From NCBI GenBank assembly GCA_963920635.1, contig OY987301.1, forward strand, positions 41,949,820 to 42,013,819: a stretch of DNA of 64,000 nucleotides, in the 5' to 3' direction. Positions within the stretch are counted from its first letter, which is position 1, and every line of letters begins with the position of its first letter. The notes under the pieces were generated by a model. It was not told the origin of the DNA and searched no databases. It was given only the letters and a program-made list of their open reading frames with translations. This document shows, piece after piece, positions 7,490-60,808 of the stretch. Position numbers and translations under genes: made by a program. The DNA is from Pseudeuparius sepicola. Lineage: Eukaryota; Arthropoda; Insecta; Coleoptera; Anthribidae.

Positions 7490-7970
7490 TACCTATTTTA
7501 TTCCCATGTCAGGAGGGTGGTAAAGAAATTTAGTCCGCCATCTTGGAGCGGCCGCCATATTGGATTTCGTATGAAGTTATTCACCTTATTGTTTTCTACC
7601 CGTCGAGCTCTTTCATTTGATACCCATGTTGGGTATCAAATAGGTAATCCGCCATCTTGGAGCGGCGGTCATATTGAATTTAGTGTGATGTCACTAACTT
7701 TATCGTTTTCTACTCTTCAAGTCCTTTCATTTGATACCCATATTATTAAGGGAGTTGAAAAGAAAATGTAATCCGCCATCTTGAGGCGGCGGCCATATTG
7801 AATTTAGTGTGATGTCACTAACTTTTTCGTTTTCTACTTTTCAAGCCCTTTCATTTGATACCCACATTAAGGGGGTCGACAAAAAATACATCATCCGCCA
7901 TCTTGGAGCGGCGGCCATTTTGAAAGTATTACAATATTGAGTATTGCATATTGTTTTGTCACCGGAACTA
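7490..7970. repeat. Tandem repeat, ~122-bp unit, 4 copies
   Basis: CCGCCATCTTGG-type starts occur at 7535, 7649, 7773 and 7895 (spacings 114, 124, 122). Each unit continues with GGCCATATTG, TTTTCTAC, CCTTTCATTTGATACCCA. The same unit appears about twice at 52860-53100 after the related hairpin element. Confidence 0.75.
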
Positions 7971-19140: not shown

Positions 19141-19237
19141 GATCTTTGCCACTTTCCGCTTATCTGTATCAATGGGAAAAATATGCACAATCCGGTAACA
19201 AGGTACCAACACCTGGCCGTCAGTCTCAACACTTGAC

Positions 19238-20527
19238 TAAACAAGCTCAAAGAATAGACCATCGAACAATGAAGATCGATTTAAGGAATGAATTCATCAA
19301 GAGAGTAAGACAAGTAGTGCGAACTGATCTTAACAGCAGGAATTTGTTTAAGGCCCTGAACACGTATGCGTGCTCTGTACTCAGCTATTCGTTTGGAATA
19401 GTGAATTGGACAAACACGGACATCAACAACCTGCAGCGAAAAGTTAGGACATTACTGACAAAAGCTCATAAACATCATCCCCGTAGCGCCGTAGAAAGAA
19501 CTACTCTGCCACGTCAACAAGGAGGAAGAGGATTGGCAGACCTCAGCAAGCAATTGGACCAACAAATATTAATTCTGCGTAATTATTTCCACAGACAGGC
19601 CAACAGCTCCACACTACATAAAGCTATATGCGGAGCAGACGTCTCAACACCGCTACGTCTGACGGAACACGAGCATCAAAATCACCACCGAACCGACAAC
19701 GATACACTACAGAGGTGGTTGGAGAAGCCGCTGCACGGGAGGCATCCTAATGAGGTCAACCAGGAACATGTCGACAAGTTAGCGTCGAACTACTGGCTGA
19801 CCTCGGGAAGAATGTTCCCCGAGACGGAAGGCTTCTTACTGGCCATACAAGATTAGGTTATACCAACTCGCAACTACCTAAAATTCATTGTAGGAGATGC
19901 ATCGGTAGTGGATGACAGATGCAGATACGGGTGCCCAACTTCAGAAACAATCCAGCACATAACAGAAGGATGTCAGATGTTCGCATCAACGGAATATAAG
20001 GAACGACACGATTTGGTTGCCAAGATCTTGCACCAGGAACTGGCGGAAAAGCTGCTGCTTGTGCAGACAGAGAGGGTCCCATATTACAACTACACACCGG
20101 AGCCTGTTCTTGAGAACAGCAACTACAAGATGTACTGGGATCGTACAGTTCTGACAGATCAACGAGTTGCCCATAACAGACCGGACTTTATAATAGTTGA
20201 TAACATTTCTAGGAAGACAACTCTGATTGATGTGGCCATCCCGAACAACAACAACAACCTGCGTGTGAAGCAAGTCGAGAAGATCGCGAAGTACAGAGAC
20301 TTAGAAGAACGAATTAGAAGGCAATGATGGAGAACGTCCAGACGATTCCAATCATCATGTCAACAACTGGTGTTATACCAAAAAGTTTGCTGAGAAACAT
20401 CAAGGAGCTGAATCTAACTGATAGTCTTTACAGGTCCATGCAAAAAGCGGTACTACTTGCGACAGCCCGAACCGTCAGGAAATTCATGGGGAATGCAGGA
20501 TCGTCCAACAACATCAATGGCACCTAA
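19238..20527 (+). pseudogene. C-terminal half of R4-like polyprotein, broken
   Basis: The frame covers the region after the reverse transcriptase through the C-x3-C-x7-H-x4-C knuckle and the restriction-like endonuclease. Compared with the second copy it has a CAG-to-TAG stop (end of the segment at 19856) and loses 4 bases after EERIRRQ near 20324. Both changes break the endonuclease. The RPD...D pair is present (RPDFIIVD, then LIDVAIP). Confidence 0.8.

Positions 20528-20645: not shown

Positions 20646-20646
<1 letters not shown>
19238..20646 (+). mobile_element. R4/Dong-like non-LTR element, 5'-truncated copy
   Basis: Homology to the longer copy begins at about 19238 (matching about 23611) and continues to the shared 3' end TTTTGGCTAAGTCGAGA followed by TAA repeats. 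The two copies are nearly identical. Truncation at the 5' side with an intact 3' end is the usual product of target-primed reverse transcription. The TAA array that ends this copy is also where the next copy begins. Confidence 0.85.

Positions 20647-20682
<36 letters not shown>
20647..20682. repeat. (TAA)n array between two R4-like copies
   Basis: About 12 TAA units form both the 3' tail of the upstream truncated element and the left flank of the full-length one. R4/Dong-type elements are known to insert into TAA repeats, so the array is probably the target of the second insertion. Confidence 0.85.
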
Positions 20683-20684
<2 letters not shown>

Positions 20685-20693
20685 CCGCAGGGG

Positions 20694-21090
20694 GGATCTG
20701 ACTTGTGAGAGAGGCAGATCCACGGGTGTGACAATCCCGCGCTCCCCAGTTACGCAGGGATGGGTCTGGCCTGTGAGAGGGGCAGATTCACGGGTGTAAC
20801 GATCCCGCGATTCCCAGTTACGCATGGAGAGGCTTGGCCTGTGACAGGGGCAGACCTACGGGTGTGACAATCCCGCGATATCCAGTTACGCAGGGAGGGG
20901 TCTAGCCGGTGACGGAGGCTGATCCTCGGGTGTGACAATCCCGCGACTCCCAGTTACACAGGGATGGGTCTAGCCTGTGAGAGGGTCAGATCCTCGGGTG
21001 TAACGATCCCGTGTTTCCCAGTTAACGCAAGGAGGGGTTTGGCCGGTGACAGGGGCAGATCCTCGGGAGTAACGATCCCGCGTTATCCTA
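20694..21090. repeat. 5'-UTR tandem repeat, 68-bp unit, ~6 copies
   Basis: The phrase CGGGTGTGACAATCCCGCG or a variant recurs with its start at 20721, 20789, 20857, 20925, 20993 and 21062 (period 68, once 69). Each unit also has CCAGTTACGCAGGGA and GGCCTGTGAGAGGGGCAGA. It lies just before the coding frame of the R4-like element. It may hold promoter or RNA-structure signals, as tandem 5' repeats do in other non-LTR elements; the number of units often varies between copies. Confidence 0.85.
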
Positions 21091-21195
21091 GTTGACCCGT
21101 ATGGGTAGCGGGTTAGAATACTCCTATCGTGGCTCCGCGAGTCGTAAAAGGTGACCGAGGGCCGTCACTCCCACGTTACGGGAGAAACCCATGGA

Positions 21196-24100
21196 ATGGA
21201 GATTAATAGGAGTATTGTCATAGGGCCGCTGCCTGGGGATCGCCAGGGCATGTCTGGAGCCGGCGCTGGGCATGACAGCGAGCGGGACGTCGGTGACAGG
21301 GCGCTGATGAGGCGGGCCCCTGTTGCACAAACAGCTACAGCCCAACAACACGAACATCTACAACATGGGAGCCAAACGAGAACTAGGGTTCCACCCACCG
21401 AAGGTGCTGCGCGGGAACTTCAGCCAGCGTTCACTCAGGCGGGATTACAACGACGACGCATGAAATGGACTGGGTCCATGAATGAATCGATAATGCGTAT
21501 TTTTTACAGGGTGACAAACTTAGGACAAGAGATGATCGGCTACCGACAACAACTGCATGCCGAGTTCTGCAGGGAGTTTCCACACATGCAAGTGTCTGAA
21601 CAAAGAGTGTCAGATCAGTATCGAACTATTCTAAGAAATAACCGAATTCCAGAAACGCGACTCAATGCTATAAAACGGGAAGTTGAGCTAGAGATCCATG
21701 GCGAACACATAGACATAGACAACAACAATGGGGAAATTCAACTGCCTGGACCACAACAAGAAGCCGGAACGGCAGAGCGAACAACTGAGAATCGGGAAAT
21801 TCAAGTGCCTGGACCACAAGAAAACGCCGAGACGACGGGACGAACAACTGAGAATCGGGAATCAGTTAACGGAGAACACTTTGAAAGCCTAGACACACAG
21901 CTGAAAGGGGCGGTATTGCGATACGAAGGCACAGACCCACTGAGCAGACCACCGCTACCAAGATTGAACTCTTCCAGGAAACTTGCAATCATGCTCGATA
22001 TTATGAACACCAGAATTTTACCCAACTATGTTTCAGTAACACCAACATTGGAACATATGCACATGTTAATCTACTGTGCCGCAACGGCCATCATCACTGC
22101 AATGGGAGCCAAGATCCGGACGGCTCAAGAGTTAAATCGTGCAAGACCAGAACCACGAATGGCTCAATGGGAGATGCGACTAAACCGGAAGATCGAGAGT
22201 CTCCGTAAAGACATAGGACAAGTAACGGAATATATCAGAGGAGTTAGAACTAGAAAGATCCAGAGGGCGGTGCAGGCAATAATGAGCCGCACCCAAATGC
22301 ATTCTCAGCGTGACCCCGCGAACATCACTGCTCAACAATGTCTTGATACATTAAAACAAAAACTTTCTGTTTTCGCAGGGCGTCTGAGGAGATACAAGGC
22401 TAGTAACAACAGGAAACGAGACAACAAACTTTTTGAACGATCAGAAAAAGTTTTCTACCGTACTTTGAATTCTAGCGGCGATGCCACAAATGCGACTTAC
22501 CCTACCAGAGAACAGGTCGACGGTTTCTGGAGAAATCAACTTGCCACACCAGGTCCATACAATGTCAGTGCAAGCTGGATCAGCGAAGAACGCGAGATGG
22601 GCCGGAACTATAGCCAGATGCAACACGAGCAATTCACAACCGCTGAGGTCTCCGATGTCATCAAGAATTCCCACAACTGGAAGGCACCAGGTCCAGATCA
22701 TCTCCAAAATTACTGGATTAAGAAGTTGTGGTGCACGCATGAACAAATAACTGCCTTAATTAATGAAGTCTTGCTCGATCCTCTGAAAATGCCATTGTTT
22801 CTTACACAGGGTGCAACCTACTTGTTACCAAAAGACCAGCGGAATACGGATAATCCTGCCAAGTACCGCCCAATAACCTGCTTGCCTACGCTGTACAAGA
22901 TAATCACATCTTGCCTTACGCAGCGAATATATGCTCACTGTGAGCGGAACAACATCATGGCAATGCAGCAGAAGGGCTGCGCGAAGGGCGCAATGGGATG
23001 CAAAGAGCAACTCATCATAGACTCTGTCATCTGCAACCAGGCTCATTCCAGGCAACGAAACCTCTACATGGCTTATGTGGACTACAAAAAAGCATTTGAT
23101 TCCGTACCTCACGACTGGCTCACAGTACAAAATAGATCATCATACAGTTTCCTTTTTAGAACACGTTATGACAACCTGGCGCACTAAGATACAACTCAGA
23201 ACCGCAAGCAGTAACATCGAGACCGACACAATCAACATCCGAAGAGGGATTTTCCAAGGAGATTCACTCAGTCCACTGTGGTTCTGCATGGCGATGAACC
23301 CTCTATCACACCGGTTGAACTCTACGAAATATGGCTTCGCTATCAAAAGCAACAGATCAGAAGCGTTCAGGTTGAATCACCTGTTATATATGGATGATTT
23401 AAAACTGATGGCCGCAACCAAGAACCAACTAACGCAAATGCTTAAAATTGTAGAGGAGTTCTCCAGGGACATCGGAATGCAGTTTGGACTGGACAAGTGC
23501 CGCACCCTTAATATCGTCCGGGGAAAGCTCGAACAAGGCGCACACGAGATGCAGGACGGACAGGAGATCGAAGCAATGAGCGTGGGAGATACATACAAGT
23601 ACCTCGGGATGAAGCAAGCTCAAAGGATAGATCATCGAACAATGAAGACCGATTTAACTAATGAATTCATCAAGAGAGTAAGACAAGTAGTGCGAACTGA
23701 TCTTAACAGCAGGAATTTGTTTAAGGCCCTAAACACGTATGCGTGCTCTGTACTAAGCTATTCCTTCGGAATAGTGAATTGGACCAACACGGACATCAAC
23801 AACTTGCAACGAAAAGTTAGGACACTACTGACAAAAGCTCATAAACATCATCCCCGTAGCGCCGTAGAAAGAACAACCCTGCCACGTCAACAAGGAGGAA
23901 GAGGATTGGCAGACCTCAGCAAGCAATTGGACCAACAAATACTAAATCTGCGTAATTATTTCCACAGACAGGCCAACAGCTCCACACTACATAAAGCTAT
24001 ATGCGGAGCAGACGTCTCAACACCGCTACGTCTGACGGAACACGAGCATCACAATCACCACCGAACTGACAACGATAAACTACAGAGGTGGTTAGAGAAG

Positions 24101-24901
24101 CCGCTGCACGGGAGGCATCCTAATGAGGTTAACCAGGAACATGTCGACAAGTTAGCGTCGTACTATTGGCTGACCTCGGGACGGATGTTCCCAGAGACAG
24201 AAGGCTTCTTACTGGCCATACAAGATCAGGTTATACCAACTCGCAACTACCTAAAATTCATTGTAGGAGATGCATCGGTAGTGGATGACAGATGCAGATA
24301 CGGGTGCCCAACTTCAGAAACAATCCAGCACATAACAGGAGGATGTCAGATGTTTGCATCAACGGAATATAAGGAACGACACGATTCGGTTGCCAAGATC
24401 TTGCACCAGGAACTGGCGGAAAAGCTGCTGCTTGTGCAGACAGAGAGGGTCCCATATTACAACTACACACCTGAGCCTGTTCTTGAGAACAGAAACTACA
24501 AGATGTACTGGGATCGTACAGTTCTGACTGATCAACGAGTTGCCCATAACAGACCGGACCTTATAATAGTTGATAAAATTTCTAGGAAGACAACTCTGAT
24601 TGATGTGGCCATCCCGAACAACAACAACCTGCGTGTGAAGCAAGTCGAGAAGATCGCGAAGTACAGAGACTTAGAAGAACGAATTAGAAGGCAATGGGAA
24701 ATGGAGAACGTCCAGACGATTCCAATCATCATGTCAACAACTGGTGTTATACCAAAAAGTTTGCTGAGAAACATCAAGGAGCTGAATCTAACTGATAGTC
24801 TTTACAGGTCCATGCAGAAAGCGGTACTACTTGCGACAGCCCGAACCGTCAGGAAATTCATGGGGAATGCAGGATCGTCCAACAACATCAATGTCACCTA
24901 A
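21196..24901 (+). pseudogene. R4/Dong-like polyprotein (RT + endonuclease), one frameshift
   Basis: The first ATG is at 21196; the upstream in-frame sequence has none. Around residue 90 is a Myb-like segment (MKWTGSMNESIMRIFYR...) likely to bind DNA. Reverse transcriptase motifs follow: PKDQRNTDNPAKYRPITCL, AYVDYKKAFDSVPHDWL (motif A), GIFQGDSLSPLWFCMAMNP (motif B), LLYMDDLKLMAAT (motif C). Then come a C-x3-C-x7-H-x4-C knuckle (about 24292-24345) and an endonuclease with RPDLIIVD and LIDVAIP, the PD...D-x-K-like core. The frame breaks at about 23115-23135, between motif A and YKIDHHTVSFL; bases appear to be missing there, so this copy is probably dead although otherwise complete to the stop at 24899-24901. 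Confidence 0.85.
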
Positions 24902-39647: not shown

Positions 39648-40253
39648 TTAGAAATAATTTTCAATGTTACTACCTTCTTTTAATAAACATAAGTTTAGAC
39701 GGCCTCTTACTTCCGTCTTAGTATAACCTTTCTTAATACATCTGCTGTTATTTGCCGACAAGCATCTTCTATTTTTTCTATTAAAGGAACAATATTCCGA
39801 GATGGAGTTTTGTAGACAATATTTTTCAGAAATCCCCATAAATGTAAATCTAATGGTGTTAAATCTGGCGATTTTCCTGGCCATTTTATGGGACCATTTA
39901 TGTATTCCACTCCATTTGTTTCCAAAATCATCATTTAGAAATTCTTTTACAATGTTGGCCATGTGTGCTGGAGCTCCGTCGTGTTGAAACCATATGATTC
40001 TTCTCAACTGCAATGACACATTATCCATGAGAACTGGCAGCTGTTGTCGCAAAAATTGGAGGTACGTTATTTCAGTTAAAGCTCCTTCGTAAAAATATAG
40101 CCCAACTAAATTATGACCAATTATGCCAAACCATACATTAATGCTGAAGTGTCCCTGATTAATTTCAGCACTATTTTTTATAAGTTGGCCGCGCTTTTGC
40201 CGAAGTGACGTAGGTGCGCAGAAGAGATTAATTTTCGTTCTCCTAGCTGGCAT
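39648..40253 (-). pseudogene. Mariner-like transposase, C-terminal part, left arm
   Basis: The frame reads INVWFGIIGHNLVGLYFYEG, LTEITYLQFLRQQLPVLMD, then IIWFQHDGAPAHMANIVKEF (second catalytic D). It shifts frame near GNKWSG and continues in another as INGPIKWPGKSPDLTPLD (third D) and ADVLRKVILRRK. These motifs are typical of an insect mariner-type family. No N-terminal helix-turn-helix remains and one frameshift is present, so it is inactive. Confidence 0.75.
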
Positions 40254-48974: not shown

Positions 48975-49018
48975 TATAATTTATATATTATATATATTAT
49001 ATATATATATATATATAA
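48975..49018. repeat. (TA)n microsatellite, left of retrozyme-like locus
   Basis: TATATATTA/TATATATA repeats, ending at the first base of the inverted ribozyme unit. A matching (TA)n tract lies on the right at about 49853-49910. Confidence 0.8.
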
Positions 49019-49289
49019 GAAAAGGTGATAATGGGCAAACACTCAAAGTTAACAAAAAGAAAAAACTAGTAACCGCATACACGTGTTTCATGCTATTTGG
49101 CAATCATCAGTACGATGTAACATTAACCAAATCAAAAGATAGGCATGATTTGGGAAGCAACAAATGAAGTCCAGGCAGGAGCCAACAGCACATTTGCAGC
49201 TTCAGTCAGCACATCCCCTATTTTGGGGCTTGTACTAACATCGCCACGGAGGCTGCTAAAGCGACCTGCGTGGAAATATTCATAACCCA
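49019..49289 (-). mobile_element. Retrozyme-like unit, inverted copy
   Basis: Reverse complement of 49545-49818, nearly identical (one visible difference, CGATG for CGGTG). Includes the hammerhead-like fold and the downstream part CTTGTACTAACATCGCC on its plus face. No reading frame with known motif. Confidence 0.7.
49073..49115 (-). ncRNA. Hammerhead ribozyme-like motif 2 (inverted unit)
   Basis: Minus strand: stem I CGTA (49114-49111), CTGATGA (49110-49104), stem II TGC/GCA with loop CAAATA, GAAAC (49089-49085), loop ACGT, GTA, then stem I closing TGCGG (49077-49073). One stem I pair becomes a G-U wobble (TCGTA here, CCGTA in the direct copies), so pairing is kept. Confidence 0.65.
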
Positions 49290-49392
49290 TTCATTCATAT
49301 TTTATTTTTATATATTATATTATATTTTATTTTTATATTTCATATTTTTTTTTTATTATTTATATTCATCTTTTGATTTGGTTAATGTTACA

Positions 49393-49435
49393 CCGTACTG
49401 ATGATTGCCAAATAGCATGAAACACGTGTATGCGG
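49393..49435 (+). ncRNA. Hammerhead ribozyme-like motif 3 (direct unit 1)
   Basis: CCGTA (49393-49397), CTGATGA (49398-49404), stem II TGC (49406-49408)/GCA (49415-49417) with loop CAAATA, GAAAC (49419-49423), loop ACGT, GTA (49428-49430; predicted cut after A49430), TGCGG (49431-49435). CCGTA and TGCGG pair as 5-bp stem I. Stem III is 2 bp with a 4-base loop, as in the schistosome hammerhead, which also has CCAAATA in loop II. Weak points are a T insert after the CTGATGA box and a T opposite it, next to the GAAA. Confidence 0.7.
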
Positions 49436-49718
49436 TTACTAGTTTTTTCTTTTTGTTAACTTTGAGTGTTTGCCCATTATCACCTTTTCTTGTAATTGTT
49501 ACATTTACACTCGCTAATCTTACATCCTTATTGTCATTGTATCTTGGGTTATGAATATTTCCACGCAGGTCGCTTTAGCAGCCTCCGTGGCGATGTTAGT
49601 ACAAGCCCCAAAATAGGGGATGTGCTGACTGAAGCTGCAAATGTGCTGTTGGCTCCTGCCTGGACTTCATTTGTTGCTTCCCAAATCATGCCTATCTTTT
49701 GATTTGGTTAATGTTACA

Positions 49719-49761
49719 CCGTACTGATGATTGCCAAATAGCATGAAACACGTGTATGCGG
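49719..49761 (+). ncRNA. Hammerhead ribozyme-like motif 4 (direct unit 2)
   Basis: Same bases as motif 3, offset by 326: CTGATGA 49724-49730, GAAAC 49745-49749, cut expected after A49756. Two direct motifs would release a 326-nt RNA. Confidence 0.7.
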
Positions 49762-49854
49762 TTACTAGTTTTTTCTTTTTGTTAACTTTGAGTGTTTGCC
49801 CATTATCACCTTTTCTTGTAATTGTTACATTTACACTCGCTAATCTTACATCCT

Positions 49855-49855
<1 letters not shown>

Positions 49856-49885
<30 letters not shown>

Positions 49886-52459
49886 ATATATATATATATA
49901 TATATTTATATTCCATGAAAAAATTTGTCTTGTTATGTTTTGTCTGGGGAATCACAGTCAGACGGCGTAGATATGGGAAAGAGATATGGCATAATCATAT
50001 TTTAGGTCACACTTTTTAGATTCTTTCTTGCATAATTACAGAGAATTGATTTTTCATAAACCTAAGGGCCCAACTATAGAATTCACACTCATTTATTTAG
50101 TTATAGAACTACGAAAAAAGTTATGACACAATAGGGTACTTGACGAAATTTTACAAACTTGATAAAACAATTCCTGGACACTTGCCTAAGACCCTACGAT
50201 TATTTAAAAAATATATATTTACGTACTTATCAAGTTTTTAGACTTTCTTCGAAATTTGGCGGGAAAGCACTTATGACGTCACAAGTGTTTTAAAAAGACA
50301 ATTTGGCAACATAGCAATACCACTAAAGTGTTCTAAGACATAACCTTATTCGGCAGTGAAAGTTGCAAGGAAAGTTGAAATTTCAGAATTCTAACCTCAA
50401 ACTCCCAGACTTATGATGCCCCGTGAAACCACGTTTAGTCAAGAAGTGTTTTTTTTTTTCGTAAATACCTATTCAATCGTTTTTCTGCAAATTTTTTGGC
50501 TAGGTTGGGCCGGAATTCGGGCTCAGTATTAAGCACTATGGCGCCTTTATAAACGCGCCTTCAAGATGGTCCCTAGGCCGAGGTTCTCTCTTTATTAATA
50601 ACTCATAATACAACTGTACTATTACTACAACGTAGGTAGGTACAAACCTTTGCAGTTTTATCCCATGAATTTCGGCAGACGCCAACATCGGATTATTAGA
50701 AAAAATTGTGCTACTTAAAAAGCATCCCAATTTCGGCAAATTACGGATTTTCCTTTTAGGGTCCATGATATCTTACCTTACACATCTAACAACACGATAA
50801 CTAGGTCCGCAAATAATATATATAATAGTAAATATTAATAACAAACTATAATAAATCGCACAGATATTAATATCTACTAATGTTTTGACTTAGCGATATA
50901 CGGAATCGGAATGACAGTTGGCATCACGGGATGTCATCTGCCGATCAAAAAACCATACGTGTTAGATGACATGTGGATATATGCATATGGTTAGATGCCT
51001 AGGTGGGCAGGTAACGTTGCCACATAGGCGAATATTTCCCCCATTATTGATACCTGAATATTTATAGTACGTTCCGTATACAGATATTTTAACTAAACTG
51101 TTACGTGGCAGAGATGAAGGATATAGTTTCCAGCGTGTGCAGCATAAACAGACACCATTTTGCTATAGAGGAGTCAATATGCGGAATAAAAAAGTCTTTA
51201 TGTGACAAAATTTGTGTGTGCAATTGCGTTAGTTAAAGCTCAAAAGTTGCAATACATTAAGTAACAGATATTCATAGGCAAGCTGGAGATATTTGAATAG
51301 AAAACTGCAATTTGTCCTTGTTCCACGAAATATTGGAAACGGGCACCGGCAACGTTACAGTTCCGTTCCTCCTGAGAGGCACAGAGTTGCCACTTTTGGC
51401 GTTCTGGACAATAGAACGACGAAACTGTAGATTTCAGCCTGAACAAAATTGTGCAACTTCGTCTTTAATTATCATGAATAAATAAGTGCTAAAAGCCGTT
51501 GTTTCATTTATTACGTGTTATGTTGGTGCATCTACTGTAAACAGAGTACAATTTTAGAGCAATTAAAAATATTGTCAAGTACCCTATTGTCGCAATCTTT
51601 TTGTTTCCAAATAATGAATTTTTGAACCTACACCGATGAACATTTCAAAAGAAATATTTCAAAATATAATATGTGTCCATACACTTGTGGATGTAAATCT
51701 TTTAGATAAGAATTAAGAGGTTTTCTTGAAACGTGTCAATGTTATTTCTCTTTCTCCAATTTAGAAACTGAAAATAATAATGTTCCTATGTTTTACTATC
51801 TATCCACATTTTCGCCGATTTTTACGACAAAGTGTATATTTTAGGAATCTATATAATCAGTAATAATTATGTAGGTATATACTGCATTTATATTGCTTAT
51901 ACATTTTTATCATAATAGATCTCATTATAGTAGAAGTAATAAATGTCAAAATACATTACCTAATTACCAAGTGTCAATGTAGAAAATAGTATATTATTGC
52001 TCATATTTATTACGACACTCGCCTAAGGCTGGTGTTGACGTTGATGAATTTTAAATCTGCCATGGTCATGGCAATTAGATGCTGTGATATTGCATTTCTA
52101 TTAGTTGTGAATTGTAATGCTGCAATTATACTGGTTATAAGCTCAGAAAAATAAAAAAAACGTAGAACTGGCTTTGTTTTGGCAAGTTTGTTCCCATAAT
52201 AAAAAAATAATGTTTACAGTTCCGGTGACAGATCTGGTGCTAACGATTACAAAGCAGTGGCGTACCTCTTATTTTTTAAAATAGTTATAAAAATAGGAAA
52301 AAATATATTTGTCTTTATATCTCAATTTTTTTTATAAAAATTGAAGTGTAATCCCAGGTACAACTAGTACGCGTCAATTCTAAAATTCAAACTTATTAAT
52401 GTTATTGACAGTTACTAGTTGGGGAACACAATATAAAAAAATGAAAACTTTTTAAAAAC
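49856..52459. other. No gene recognised
   Basis: AT-rich DNA after a (TA)n tract (49853-49910). A 76-codon minus frame at 50766-50536 and others have no motifs. No clear repeats. Confidence 0.35.
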
Positions 52460-52839: not shown

Positions 52840-53110
52840 GAAGGGTGGTAAAGAAATTTAGTCCGCCATCTTGGGGCATCGGGCATCCGCCCTATTGGAT
52901 TTAGTATGTCGTCAGTCACCTTATCGTTTTCTACTCTTCAAATCCTTTCATTTGATACCCATGTCGAGGATGTTGTGAAGAATTAGGCAATCCGCCGTCT
53001 TGGGGATCGAGGCCGCCATATTAGATTTATTATGACGTCATTCACCTTATTGTTTTCTACCCGCCGGGCCCTTTCGTTTGATACCCATGTTGAGAATTAT
53101 TTTCCCTCTG
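52840..53110. repeat. Tandem repeat of the 122-bp family, ~2 copies
   Basis: CCGCCATCTTGGGGC (52862) and CCGCCGTCTTGGGG (52991), each followed by ATATTRGATTT, TTTTCTAC, CCTTTCRTTTGATACCCATG. The order hairpin-then-minisatellite matches 7.1-8.0 kb, so the two parts travel together. Confidence 0.7.
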
Positions 53111-58016: not shown

Positions 58017-60808
58017 TAGGGTGAAGGGGATATTATGAGCACCTTAAGGAAAAAAAATATTTTTTCAAGATAGTTAAAGGTATTTGAGTGTTTTTTAACA
58101 TTTCTGAAAGGTCTAAACATATTTCAATAGGCTATCAACAATTATGACATTAACAAATCATTCACAGAAAAAGGGCACAGTTTTTTAAAAACTAGTGTTG
58201 GTGCTCATATTACCCAACCGTTAGGGTAATATGAGCATGCGGTAGTATAATATGAGCACTATTATTTTAGTATGTATTTAGGTGATTTATGGATTCAGAG
58301 AATAAAAATCATGGCAAATAAATTGCTTTATTTAAACATAGCAATAAAATTATAAAAATAAACAATATTCTAAAAATATTAAAAAATCAAAATAAGAAAA
58401 ACATTCTAAAAAAATATTAAAAAAACAAAATAAGAAAAACATAGAGAACTCTTTGTGTTTAACATTCGTCGCAGTAATAGATTTTGGTCTTGTTTGAAAC
58501 TTTCGCACATGTTGTATGGCACCATTGTCTGCAGCCTATACATTCTATCCATGTTCCTCCAGTCTTTGAAAACAATTCATTGCAATAAATGCAGTTAGCG
58601 TCTTCGGCGTCGTTTTCTTTAGTTTCTTCTTTGCGTACAGTGTTGGTAATTTTTCTTCTTACACCCTTTACGTTTTTTTTATTCGACTTTGACATCTTTG
58701 GTGAAGATTTTATTTTCTCTAACTCACCTTTGTAAGGACTGCTAGTTAAAATTTTAGAATGAGCTACAGTTCTTTTTTTCTTGGTGGCATTGTTTTATTT
58801 TTTGGAAGCAAAATAATGTCTTTTTTTGGAGACCCTGACGTCTCGCAAAGTGGTTCCTGGCTCTTATTATTCAAAGAAGAACTCTGATCATTTTTATTAT
58901 TATTACTTCCAATTGGATCAGAATCTGATTTCAAAACAGGTGGAATCGAAAGGGGACTTGGGGCTAGATCTATGTTGTTGGCTTCTAATGTTGATGTAGA
59001 TGGTGCCGAATCTTCGACATTATCAACTTCGATCATATCTTCTGCAGTAACGTGAAACGATTTCGGTTCAAAGGTATTGCTTGCAGAATTTATTTCGGCT
59101 GCAATAAAATCCTCATCTTGAAAGATGTCAGGTTCTAAAGGAAAAATGCCAGTTTTTCGAAAGCCAGATATTGCATTTTTAATCGTAGCTCCTTTCCCAT
59201 ATGCTATTGAAAATAACCTTGGAATTTCCATTTCTGTTACAATGCGACCAGGATGCTGCACTAACCAACTTGACACCGCCTGGTCGTAAAAAGTGTTAAT
59301 ACTTTTAAATATTGAAACATCCAGAGGCTGCAATTTGTGTGTGCTATGAGAGGGAAGAGATAACAAGATTACATTATTTTCTCTGGCTTTAATAATTAAC
59401 TGTAAATTTTTGACGTGTGTGGCATGTCCATCTAAAATTAAAAGGGTTGGCTGTGATCTAGATTTTGGTTGAACTACTTTTAAAAAGTGGCAGAACCACG
59501 AGAAAAAAAGTCTTCGTTGATCCAACCAGAAGGAGTTGCATATCCGACTGATCCTGGTGGAGCACCATCTAACATGTCTGGTCGCATCCGAACTCGCGGA
59601 AAAATAAATAGAGGCGGAATGTACTGTCCACTAGCACCGACACAGCAGACAACTGTAACGTTTTTACCACGTTCTCCACTTGTGATTGCACCTACAGATC
59701 TTTTTCCTTTTATTGCAATGACTTTTCCAGGCTTGTGGACCGTAGTGTATCCAGACTCGTCTACGTTGAAAATTTGTTCCGGCGGAATTAATGGCAAATT
59801 ATTGTCATCAAACAGGACTTTCCTGAGGTTCTCAAAAAATACATTTACTTTAGTTCTATTGAAACCTAATGCACGATGCATAGAGGTAGCTTCAGGTTTC
59901 CGAACAGAAATTTCGGGGTGCCTTTTCCTAAAATCTCGAAACCAGTCCTTGCCAGCTTGACAGGTCAACTTATTGTATGGGTTTGAAATGTTATTTTTAA
60001 CATAATATTCGAAAACATATTTTTTTAAGTCTTTTATTCCAATTCCAAACATCCGTCTCTCCATGTCCAATAAAATTTCTACCAGCTCGTTTTCTGCTTC
60101 CTTGGATAATACAGGCTTTCTACTTAAGCTTTCTTTCATTTTAAATTCACCTCCACTGCGAGCTTTCTGGAGATAACGCCTCAATATTTGTCGTGGTACG
60201 CCGCATCTTTGTGCGGCATTCTTTTCACTTGAAGTTTGTTCTAGCACCAAATTGATAGCAGTTTTCATATTATTTTCAGTCCATTGTGATCGTACATATT
60301 TTTTCTGGTATTTTTTCGGCATCTAAAACAATAAAATGTTGACAGTTAGTACAGTCGGATTTGTTTAAAAACATTGGAATAGCGGCATTTGCAGAAACAG
60401 ATAATATGAGCATGCTGATATTAGCCGATACGTCGGGTAAAATGAGCATGCTCATATTGCCCCCAACAGACGTTAATGCAAACACCTAACCTATAACTCA
60501 TTCATTTATATTTAAATATCCGTTATATTGCAACAACATATTTGTAATTATAGTAAGCAAAATGCAGATACAAAATAAATACATAATCTGCCAAATATTA
60601 ATAATAAAACAGAGCAAATGCCTACCTTGACTGCCCCAGATCACTACGGCTGGAAACTGCGGTATTCAGTGATTCTACTTACCGACGGGGTATTTCAGAT
60701 GGTAATTCAGACTTTTATCACTAGATGGCACCACGGGTAACCTTATTCGGAGTTTACCTCTGTATGCTCATATTACCTACTATGCTCATTATCCCCACCT
60801 ATACCCTA
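58017..60808 (-). mobile_element. pogo-like DNA transposon, near complete
   Basis: TA-GGGTGAAGGGGATATTATGA at the left and the complement of TA-GGGTATAGGTGGGGATAAT at the right mark imperfect inverted ends with TA duplications; total about 2.79 kb. The word GGTAATATGAGCAT or its complement recurs near both ends (58030, 58200, 58226, 58246; 60400, 60435-60455, 60765). These look like transposase binding sites. The transposase gene fills most of the interior on the minus strand. The AATAATATT-rich left 3' region is short. Confidence 0.85.
58459..60322 (-). pseudogene. pogo-like transposase with C-terminal PHD finger, two frame breaks
   Basis: From ATG at 60322: an N-terminal HTH (NLVLEQTSSEKNAAQRCG, about residues 24-41), a second CENP-B-type HTH (GKDWFRDFRKRHPEISV, about 124-140), then the DDE domain. 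Catalytic residues are D188 in NVDESG, D in LLILDGHATH, and the following PLDVSIFKSI segment typical of the family. A Ser/Asp-rich linker precedes a C-terminal PHD-type finger (C-x2-C...C-x2-C...H-x2-C...C-x2-C, ending YYCDEC at 58459). The frame shifts once at a T7 run near 59502 and once at an A7 run near 58775 (both as read on minus). Everything between is open. These may be assembly errors in homopolymers or real decay. Confidence 0.8.

Follow-up and report, generated by a model that had tools for sequence, protein, structure and literature searches.

A retrozyme locus at 49017-49857 of a 64,000-nucleotide (nt) stretch of the genome of the beetle Pseudeuparius sepicola (assembly GCA_963920635.1, contig OY987301.1, positions 41,949,820 to 42,013,819; hereafter the window) is built as a head-to-head composite, in which a minus-strand arm precedes a plus-strand arm, with the RNA 5' ends facing each other at the centre and the 3' ends lying on the outside. 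Inverted copies recur systematically across the retrozyme family, and the outer 3' ends fall preferentially at two sites, S and T, at fixed distances past a predicted hammerhead cut. This head-to-head, S/T and duplication pattern is common to the retrozyme and two Penelope-like families of the same genome. We consider it likely that a Penelope-type enzyme primes the retrozyme RNA from both ends of the target DNA, at S and at T, and that the head-to-head composite then arises by end joining.

The initial annotation of the window, made from the sequence alone, had described two direct copies and one inverted copy of a non-coding unit. The direct order held, the two full units did not: on the plus strand, a 326-nt copy (49368-49693) is followed by a 164-nt copy (49694-49857) that is 100% identical to it, giving 1.5 units in total. 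The inverted copy was indeed found, with a complete type I hammerhead core; it aligns at 49014-49289 and differs from the direct unit at two positions. One is a C-to-T change in stem I, which is maintained through a U.G wobble as had been proposed, while the other lies at the edge of the (TA)n tract and is more simply read as target DNA than as element, placing the element end at ∼49017. From left to right, the locus consists of a (TA)n border that is part of the target (48979-49016), with similar borders at many loci of the family; the minus arm (49017-49289, minus strand), with its RNA 3' end at S, 61 nt past the predicted cut, on the left and its RNA 5' end on the right; an AT-rich spacer of 78 nt between both RNA 5' ends (49290-49367); the plus arm of 1.5 tandem units (49368-49857, plus strand), with its RNA 3' end at T, 101 nt past the predicted cut; and a right (TA)n border (49858-49911). 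The stretch between the two predicted cuts of the plus arm (49431-49756, plus strand) is a 326-nt monomer and would correspond to the putative circle. With 326 bp and a GC content of 0.405, the unit lies within the range of retrozymes (tandem units of ∼170-400 bp, GC below 50%). Its reading frames are short and run from stop to stop, the longest (94 amino acids) lying partly in the flanks; two short unit frames had no protein relatives in our searches, and convincing RNA polymerase III boxes were not found in the unit, where an A-box-like site has one mismatch and a B-box-like site two. When a full-locus transcript is folded, 271 of the 276 arm bases find a partner in the opposite arm (49014-49820). 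A transcript across the whole locus is, as modelled, a possible source of double-stranded RNA.

Type I hammerhead motifs lie at 49392-49436 and 49718-49762 on the plus strand (predicted cuts after A49430 and A49756; 26.5 bits each against Rfam model RF00163) and at 49072-49116 in the minus arm (minus strand, predicted cut 3' of base 49078; 24.5 bits). As annotated, all three show the order CTGATGA (at 49398 and 49724 on the plus and 49110 on the minus strand), stem II with loop CAAATA, GAAA, a stem III of one A-U and one C-G pair with loop ACGT, and TA; stem I comprises 6 bp including one G.U, and core and stems are complete at all three sites. A core-plus-stems descriptor matched only these sites in the window and gave three matches in total across 150 random 64-kb sequences (first-order Markov, both strands), while the core pattern with up to three mismatches was likewise confined to them, against 0.13 expected. 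The model search recommended in the initial annotation succeeded as to place and fell short as to score: across the whole window, Rfam at E≤0.5 returned exactly three matches, at exactly these sites and all to RF00163 (Hammerhead type I), none reaching the gathering score. In a scan limited to 1.1 kb, the best model was RF02275 (HH9), with 27.1, 27.1 and 25.1 bits where the gathering score is 52. Position and pattern show the motif to be genuine, though as a hammerhead it scores weakly. Folded as a circle, the 326-nt unit does better than shuffles (z -2.08, 2/100 shuffles equally good), and a stem-loop after the cut was sought without success, since shuffles outdo the 130-nt fold (z 1.27). Capped by a tetraloop and just 2 bp long, stem III is formed by an 8-nt palindrome (ACACGTGT; 49422-49429, plus strand), so that two neighbouring motifs could share a long stem III of up to 8 bp. 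By analogy, cleavage may require two adjacent ribozymes joined in this manner: the axolotl hammerhead HHR_Amex2 is described as having a tetraloop on a 2-bp stem III and a basal U.U in stem II, and axolotl retrozymes are reported to cleave best as dimers (PMC7229834).

Genome-wide, the family is dispersed and multicopy, and target duplications at loci L017 and L025 (see below) mark it as mobile. The host genome (769 Mb, 16 contigs) holds 5,189 matches (2527 + 2662) to a 35-nt hammerhead pattern with up to three mismatches, the reversed control giving 0, so that the search for further copies called for in the initial annotation returned thousands; the outcome it had named as speaking against its reading, neither a model match nor other copies, did not occur. 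At least 132 BLAST matches to the 326-nt unit were obtained, of which 15, the window's own included, are full length and share the top score of 589 bits, in line with the recent activity that had been suggested. Tandem spacing is mostly 326 in 100 listed places, and among the matches listed the arrays reach 13 motifs. One array, L054 (C1:3142664-3146286), has 13 hammerhead motifs at 299-bp instead of 326-bp spacing, a unit length variant. The annotated kinship with animal retrozymes agrees with the length of the unit, its tandem arrangement, a GC content under 50%, the type I core, lack of a long open reading frame (ORF) and many copies, and the anatomy supports the locus as one insertion of an animal retrozyme without long terminal repeats (LTRs). 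Outside the host, a tight motif search gave 0 viral contigs, and phage matches were sought and none found. Matches to a looser motif (1 viral, 7 prokaryotic) were discarded: 0/8 had an Rfam hammerhead at E≤0.5, and 7-8 were expected by chance among genome contigs by our own estimate.

Two samples of loci were read. Set A comprises 34 loci, ranked by similarity and drawn from 69 of the 132 BLAST matches (40 of 69 candidates were scored in the search; the 63 matches outside the set are short wrap-around pieces at the same loci), and set B comprises 29 clusters of exact motifs in genome order along one contig, using 79 of 100 listed places (21 places inside two arrays were left out, and region L060 was limited to 9,999 bases). 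The order minus arm then plus arm was found at 30/34 loci in set A and 23/29 in set B; counted as adjacent arms, (-+) exceeded (+-) by 33 to 4 and 29 to 4, respectively. All eight (+-) gaps are (TA) tracts, of which six are pure and those at L029 and L058 also hold a piece of the element, and they look like borders between separate insertions. The outer RNA 3' ends cluster ∼61 nt (S) and 101-102 nt (T) past the predicted cut, S often being given as 64 by BLAST because TA follows. For blocks whose outward flank is at least 90% A+T, and with windows of 55-72 for S and 98-114 for T that were picked on set A and carried over to set B as they stood, 36/42 ends in set A (15 S, 21 T) and 36/41 in set B (18 S, 18 T) fall at one of the two sites; with narrower windows, the tabulated count for set A is 35/42 and the clustering P test used 34/42. 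Besides, the two sites are paired: one S and one T arm make up 17/19 classifiable pairs in set A (two T/T) and 17/19 in set B (one S/S, one T/T), that is 34/38 in both sets together. Under a strict filter for look-alike junctions, which is over-strict in that it also drops truly separate junctions, 24/27 pairs are S/T (P about 2e-5 versus independent choice). The window locus (L033), with S on the minus and T on the plus arm, fits this rule. Arm lengths in set A range from tens of nt to 2,687 nt (∼8.2 units), and one block of a single orientation in set B (L050) measures 4,275 nt. Some composites (L019, L065 and that at C9:15678000-15685000) resemble their own mirror-image duplicates, flank included at C9, which is either a true rearrangement or an assembly artefact.

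At the outer borders, 12 loci (10 composites and the single-arm loci L036 and L046) were tested for target duplications with 60 controls each, and duplications of 9-19 bp were found at 4/12: 12 bp at L017 (0/60 controls as good), 19 bp with one mismatch at L025 (0/60), 9 bp at L037 (1/60), and a fourth at L035. Where arms meet without an insert, 16/19 junctions have microhomology, against 0.43 at random. The RNA 5' ends of the two arms are uncorrelated in set A (mean circular distance 81.1, random 81.5). Sequence variants are common to blocks within a locus in 86/278 cases and between loci in 505/23,296, a count that takes all block pairs per locus and not opposite arms alone. Units within one arm can differ, as in L027 and in L041, which mixes several types across 8.2 units, so that in some cases the template must be something other than one monomer circle; a monomer circle as the sole template was accordingly dropped as a general explanation, and oligomeric RNA or template switching is likely at some loci. 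At L027 (C10:18.02 Mb), a composite of 3.9 + 2.6 units, the identical pair of unit types is present in both arms, and in both arms CTGATGA is replaced by CCGATGA, a core change found in all seven units that could be read at unit position 295, although the element did insert. A change at this core position is expected to abolish cutting. If it does so here, uncut RNA can still serve as template, which would agree with the report that catalytic hammerhead mutants of the Anolis element left in vitro insertion unaffected (PMC11167929).

The same genome contains at least 132 matches to the GIY-YIG domain (150 of 1,365 candidates scored), some within open frames of 819 amino acids in tandem with a period of 3,136; the frame scanned in L090 has both RVT_1 and GIY-YIG. 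Among the matches listed, neighbours within 6.5 kb are 14 times (-+) and never (+-). A first Penelope-like family (read in L077-L090) carries a minimal hammerhead-like motif by our own pattern, which Rfam at E≤1 did not recognise in L081 and L090; three of its ends lie 63-64 nt and nine lie 93-99 nt past the cut, and three stretches (L081, L082, L090) run into the next tandem copy. In a second family (L091), the arms end ∼64-66 and 97 nt past the cut. All three clean composites (L079, L083/L084 and L091) have one S and one T arm, and each has a border word of 12-13 bp common to both sides, while 39/3,000 random window pairs share a word of at least 10. A rearranged locus on C9 (L087-L089) was left out of these counts. 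The retrozyme shows the insertion pattern of Penelope-like elements (head-to-head arms, two 3' end sites, one tailed arm, an AT-rich target and, at 4/12 loci, a duplication), and its unit has no ORF with reverse transcriptase (RT) and GIY-YIG, which sets it apart from them in membership. GIY-YIG is also absent from all window frames scanned, where the only RVT_1 matches belong to the element at 21151-24901.

Taken together, we propose the following course of events. Transcripts of tandem copies would be cut by their hammerheads, probably best as pairs joined through the palindromic stem III, into monomers, oligomers and possibly circles. A Penelope-type RT/GIY-YIG endonuclease would then recognise the RNA via a feature whose position is defined by the hammerhead. 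It would cut both strands of a target that is AT-rich or (TA)n and use both DNA 3' ends as primers, one starting at S (∼61 nt past the cut) and the other at T (101-102 nt), with both copies running upstream for anything from a fraction of a unit to over eight units; this step is supported by the existence of two favoured end sites, by the pairing of S with T and by the duplications that flank some composites as a whole. Finally, the two cDNA ends would be joined by microhomology end joining into a head-to-head composite, as the junction statistics indicate. We infer that one of the local Penelope-like families moves the retrozyme in trans, with self-cleavage, circle formation, recognition of the RNA by the Penelope-like protein and use of the hammerhead as a landmark as putative parts of the process.

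Several observations weigh against this scheme. An arm ends elsewhere or is unclassed in 14/33 composites of set A and 10/29 of set B. Eight of the 12 loci tested show no duplication above controls, and the 13-bp duplication at L035 has one mismatch and is TA-like. A handful of diverged loci (L018, L044, L023, L027) contribute most of the shared variants, and several variant-bearing loci (L037, L040, L045) share none between arms. By exact matching, 14/33 junctions have an apparent insert; as BLAST gaps, inserts measure 1-10 nt in seven junctions, 31 nt in L044 and 78 nt at the window locus, whose spacer, without a tight junction, is the longest among the 33 head-to-head junctions of set A. 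As to the ribozyme, a U.U mismatch sits at the base of a stem II of only 3 bp, the RF00163 scores lie under the Rfam gathering score of 34, no match anywhere in the window passes the gathering threshold of its model, and the minimum-energy circle fold (-79.1) does not contain the hammerhead, which has to be forced at -73.9. DNA similarity of the retrozyme to either Penelope-like family read was not detectable, so that shared sequence does not explain recognition, and the retrozyme has no clear counterpart of the AC-rich region in which RT starts in Anolis, its A+C between S and T being 0.49 (0.43 in its whole unit) versus 0.68 and 0.65 in the two local families. Finally, all support stems from sequence analysis.

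Among the alternatives, the composites might be two independent insertions that landed in opposite orientations near each other in one (TA)n tract. Nested or neighbouring insertions do occur, as witnessed by the eight (+-) adjacencies across (TA) tracts, two with an element fragment, and by L019, L023 and L038 with two head-to-head junctions each, and at single loci such as that of the window, with its 78-nt spacer, such a double event could account for the arrangement. As a general explanation it is nonetheless very improbable, given the excess of (-+) over (+-) by 62 to 8 (sign test), the S/T pairing in 34/38 classifiable pairs and the variants common to arms, the duplications around some whole composites, and the many junctions that lie inside element sequence with microhomology. 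Movement by a long interspersed nuclear element (LINE) through twin priming, as in human L1, is an unlikely source, if the least unlikely of those considered. Twin priming also yields head-to-head inversions; in L1, the internal site to which the second primer anneals varies, whereas both retrozyme arms favour two fixed sites, as do the local Penelope-like families that served as comparison class. In favour of a LINE, one may point to the RVT_1 element at 21151-24901 in the window itself and to LINEs being the other candidate named in an account of animal retrozymes (PMC7229834).

One cDNA or antisense RNA could also fold back and copy itself. Such self-priming on an antisense template was the explanation given for the head-to-head order of Penelope in Adineta vaga (PMC3846280), yet a snap-back predicts near-equal 5' ends, and the observed distance of 81.1 compares with 81.5 at random, with 6/33 pairs within 25 nt against 5.2 expected. 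Neither correlated 5' ends nor palindromic junctions were seen in most loci of set A, and a snap-back makes no prediction of separate S and T ends, all of which renders it quite unlikely. A similarly low probability attaches to an ordinary satellite family, spread by DNA recombination, in which the hammerhead is no more than a decayed relic. While the sub-threshold model scores and the arrays of up to 13 motifs among the matches listed would be in keeping with this view, the hammerhead core is kept in 97/114 motifs read in set A, and the copies occur as discrete insertions that favour particular ends and AT-rich targets and, at some loci, are flanked by duplications, which is at odds with it.

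The element itself is a further example of the described kind of animal retrozyme. Like the non-LTR retrozymes of animals as portrayed in PMC7229834, it has a tandem unit of 170-400 nt, GC below 50%, a type I hammerhead, no apparent LTR and many copies; for its head-to-head composites with two preferred 3' ends, a term search of the main text of that paper found no description. It further resembles, by description and in an insect instead of an amphibian host, the satellite retrozymes of newt and axolotl, with their ∼330-bp unit and weak or palindromic helix III. The mobilisers of animal retrozymes, and the template that they use, are left open in the published accounts, with Penelope-like elements or LINEs named as candidates (PMC7229834, PMC11722881). 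As in Penelope-like elements (Poseidon of Anolis, PMC11167929; Adineta vaga, PMC3846280), the hammerhead of the retrozyme lies upstream of what would be internal RT starts, and the head-to-head inverted pseudo-LTR (pLTR) with an optional tail on one, partial tandems, duplications and AT-rich simple targets of those elements have their counterparts here. By these accounts, A. vaga Penelope has a 31-bp tail on one of its head-to-head inverted pLTRs and duplications of 8-10 bp (PMC3846280), the optional tail measures 30-40 bp in D. virilis, and the Anolis protein cleaves and extends both strands of AT-rich DNA, with RT starting internally, 111-118 into the ORF, and the hammerhead cut 26 bp into it (PMC11167929). 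Unlike Penelope-like elements, the retrozyme shows no long ORF, its sequence has no detectable resemblance to those of the two local families, and its S and T sites lie 40-41 nt apart versus ∼31 in Penelope-like elements. No account of a retrozyme inserted with two arms and two end sites came up in the literature surveyed, which consisted mostly of titles and abstracts, and an earlier account, e.g. in the Penelope hammerhead papers of 2014/2017, is possible.

The window contains other repeats and mobile elements. At 21151-24901 (plus strand) lies an RT element with RVT_1 in two overlapping frames, whose RT at 23075-24898 has its closest named relatives in Diabrotica and Anthonomus (70-71% identity over part of the protein), and which we take to resemble site-specific elements of the R4/Dong type; a partial near-copy was seen by eye at 19146-20327 (plus strand), and the element adjoins (ATA)12 (20646-20682) and a 68-bp minisatellite (20686-21082). 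A transposase at 58764-60322 (minus strand), presumably Pogo/Tigger-like, has a DDE_1 match in the frame 58764-59522, and an overlapping frame (59480-60319) looks like its first part, without a Pfam match; viral relatives of this transposase were sought and none confirmed. Another ORF at 39648-40253 (minus strand) is without a Pfam match, and from its residues we assume it to be the remnant of a mariner/Tc1-type transposase. Two minisatellites at 7534-7924 and 52862-53094 (124-126 bp) have by eye a similar consensus (TCCGCCATCTTGG...).

In a wider sense, animal retrozymes might be RNA parasites of Penelope-like elements, with the hammerhead, and not the sequence, setting a ruler by which a single enzyme starts RT at ∼61-66 and ∼93-102 nt past the cut, once per target strand, a generalisation that we regard as evenly balanced between right and wrong. 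If true, every insertion would be primed twice and form a head-to-head composite in which one arm is tailed, and the hammerhead would contribute to transposition also by marking the start of reverse transcription. The footprint that the retrozyme has in common with local Penelope-like families provides a direct test of the Penelope hypothesis for retrozyme mobility. Moreover, with its 5,189 motifs, one genome offers a large stock of natural insertions in which to study how Penelope integrates, a reaction that is poorly known, and such insertions could show why Penelope copies carry an inverted pLTR and an optional tail.

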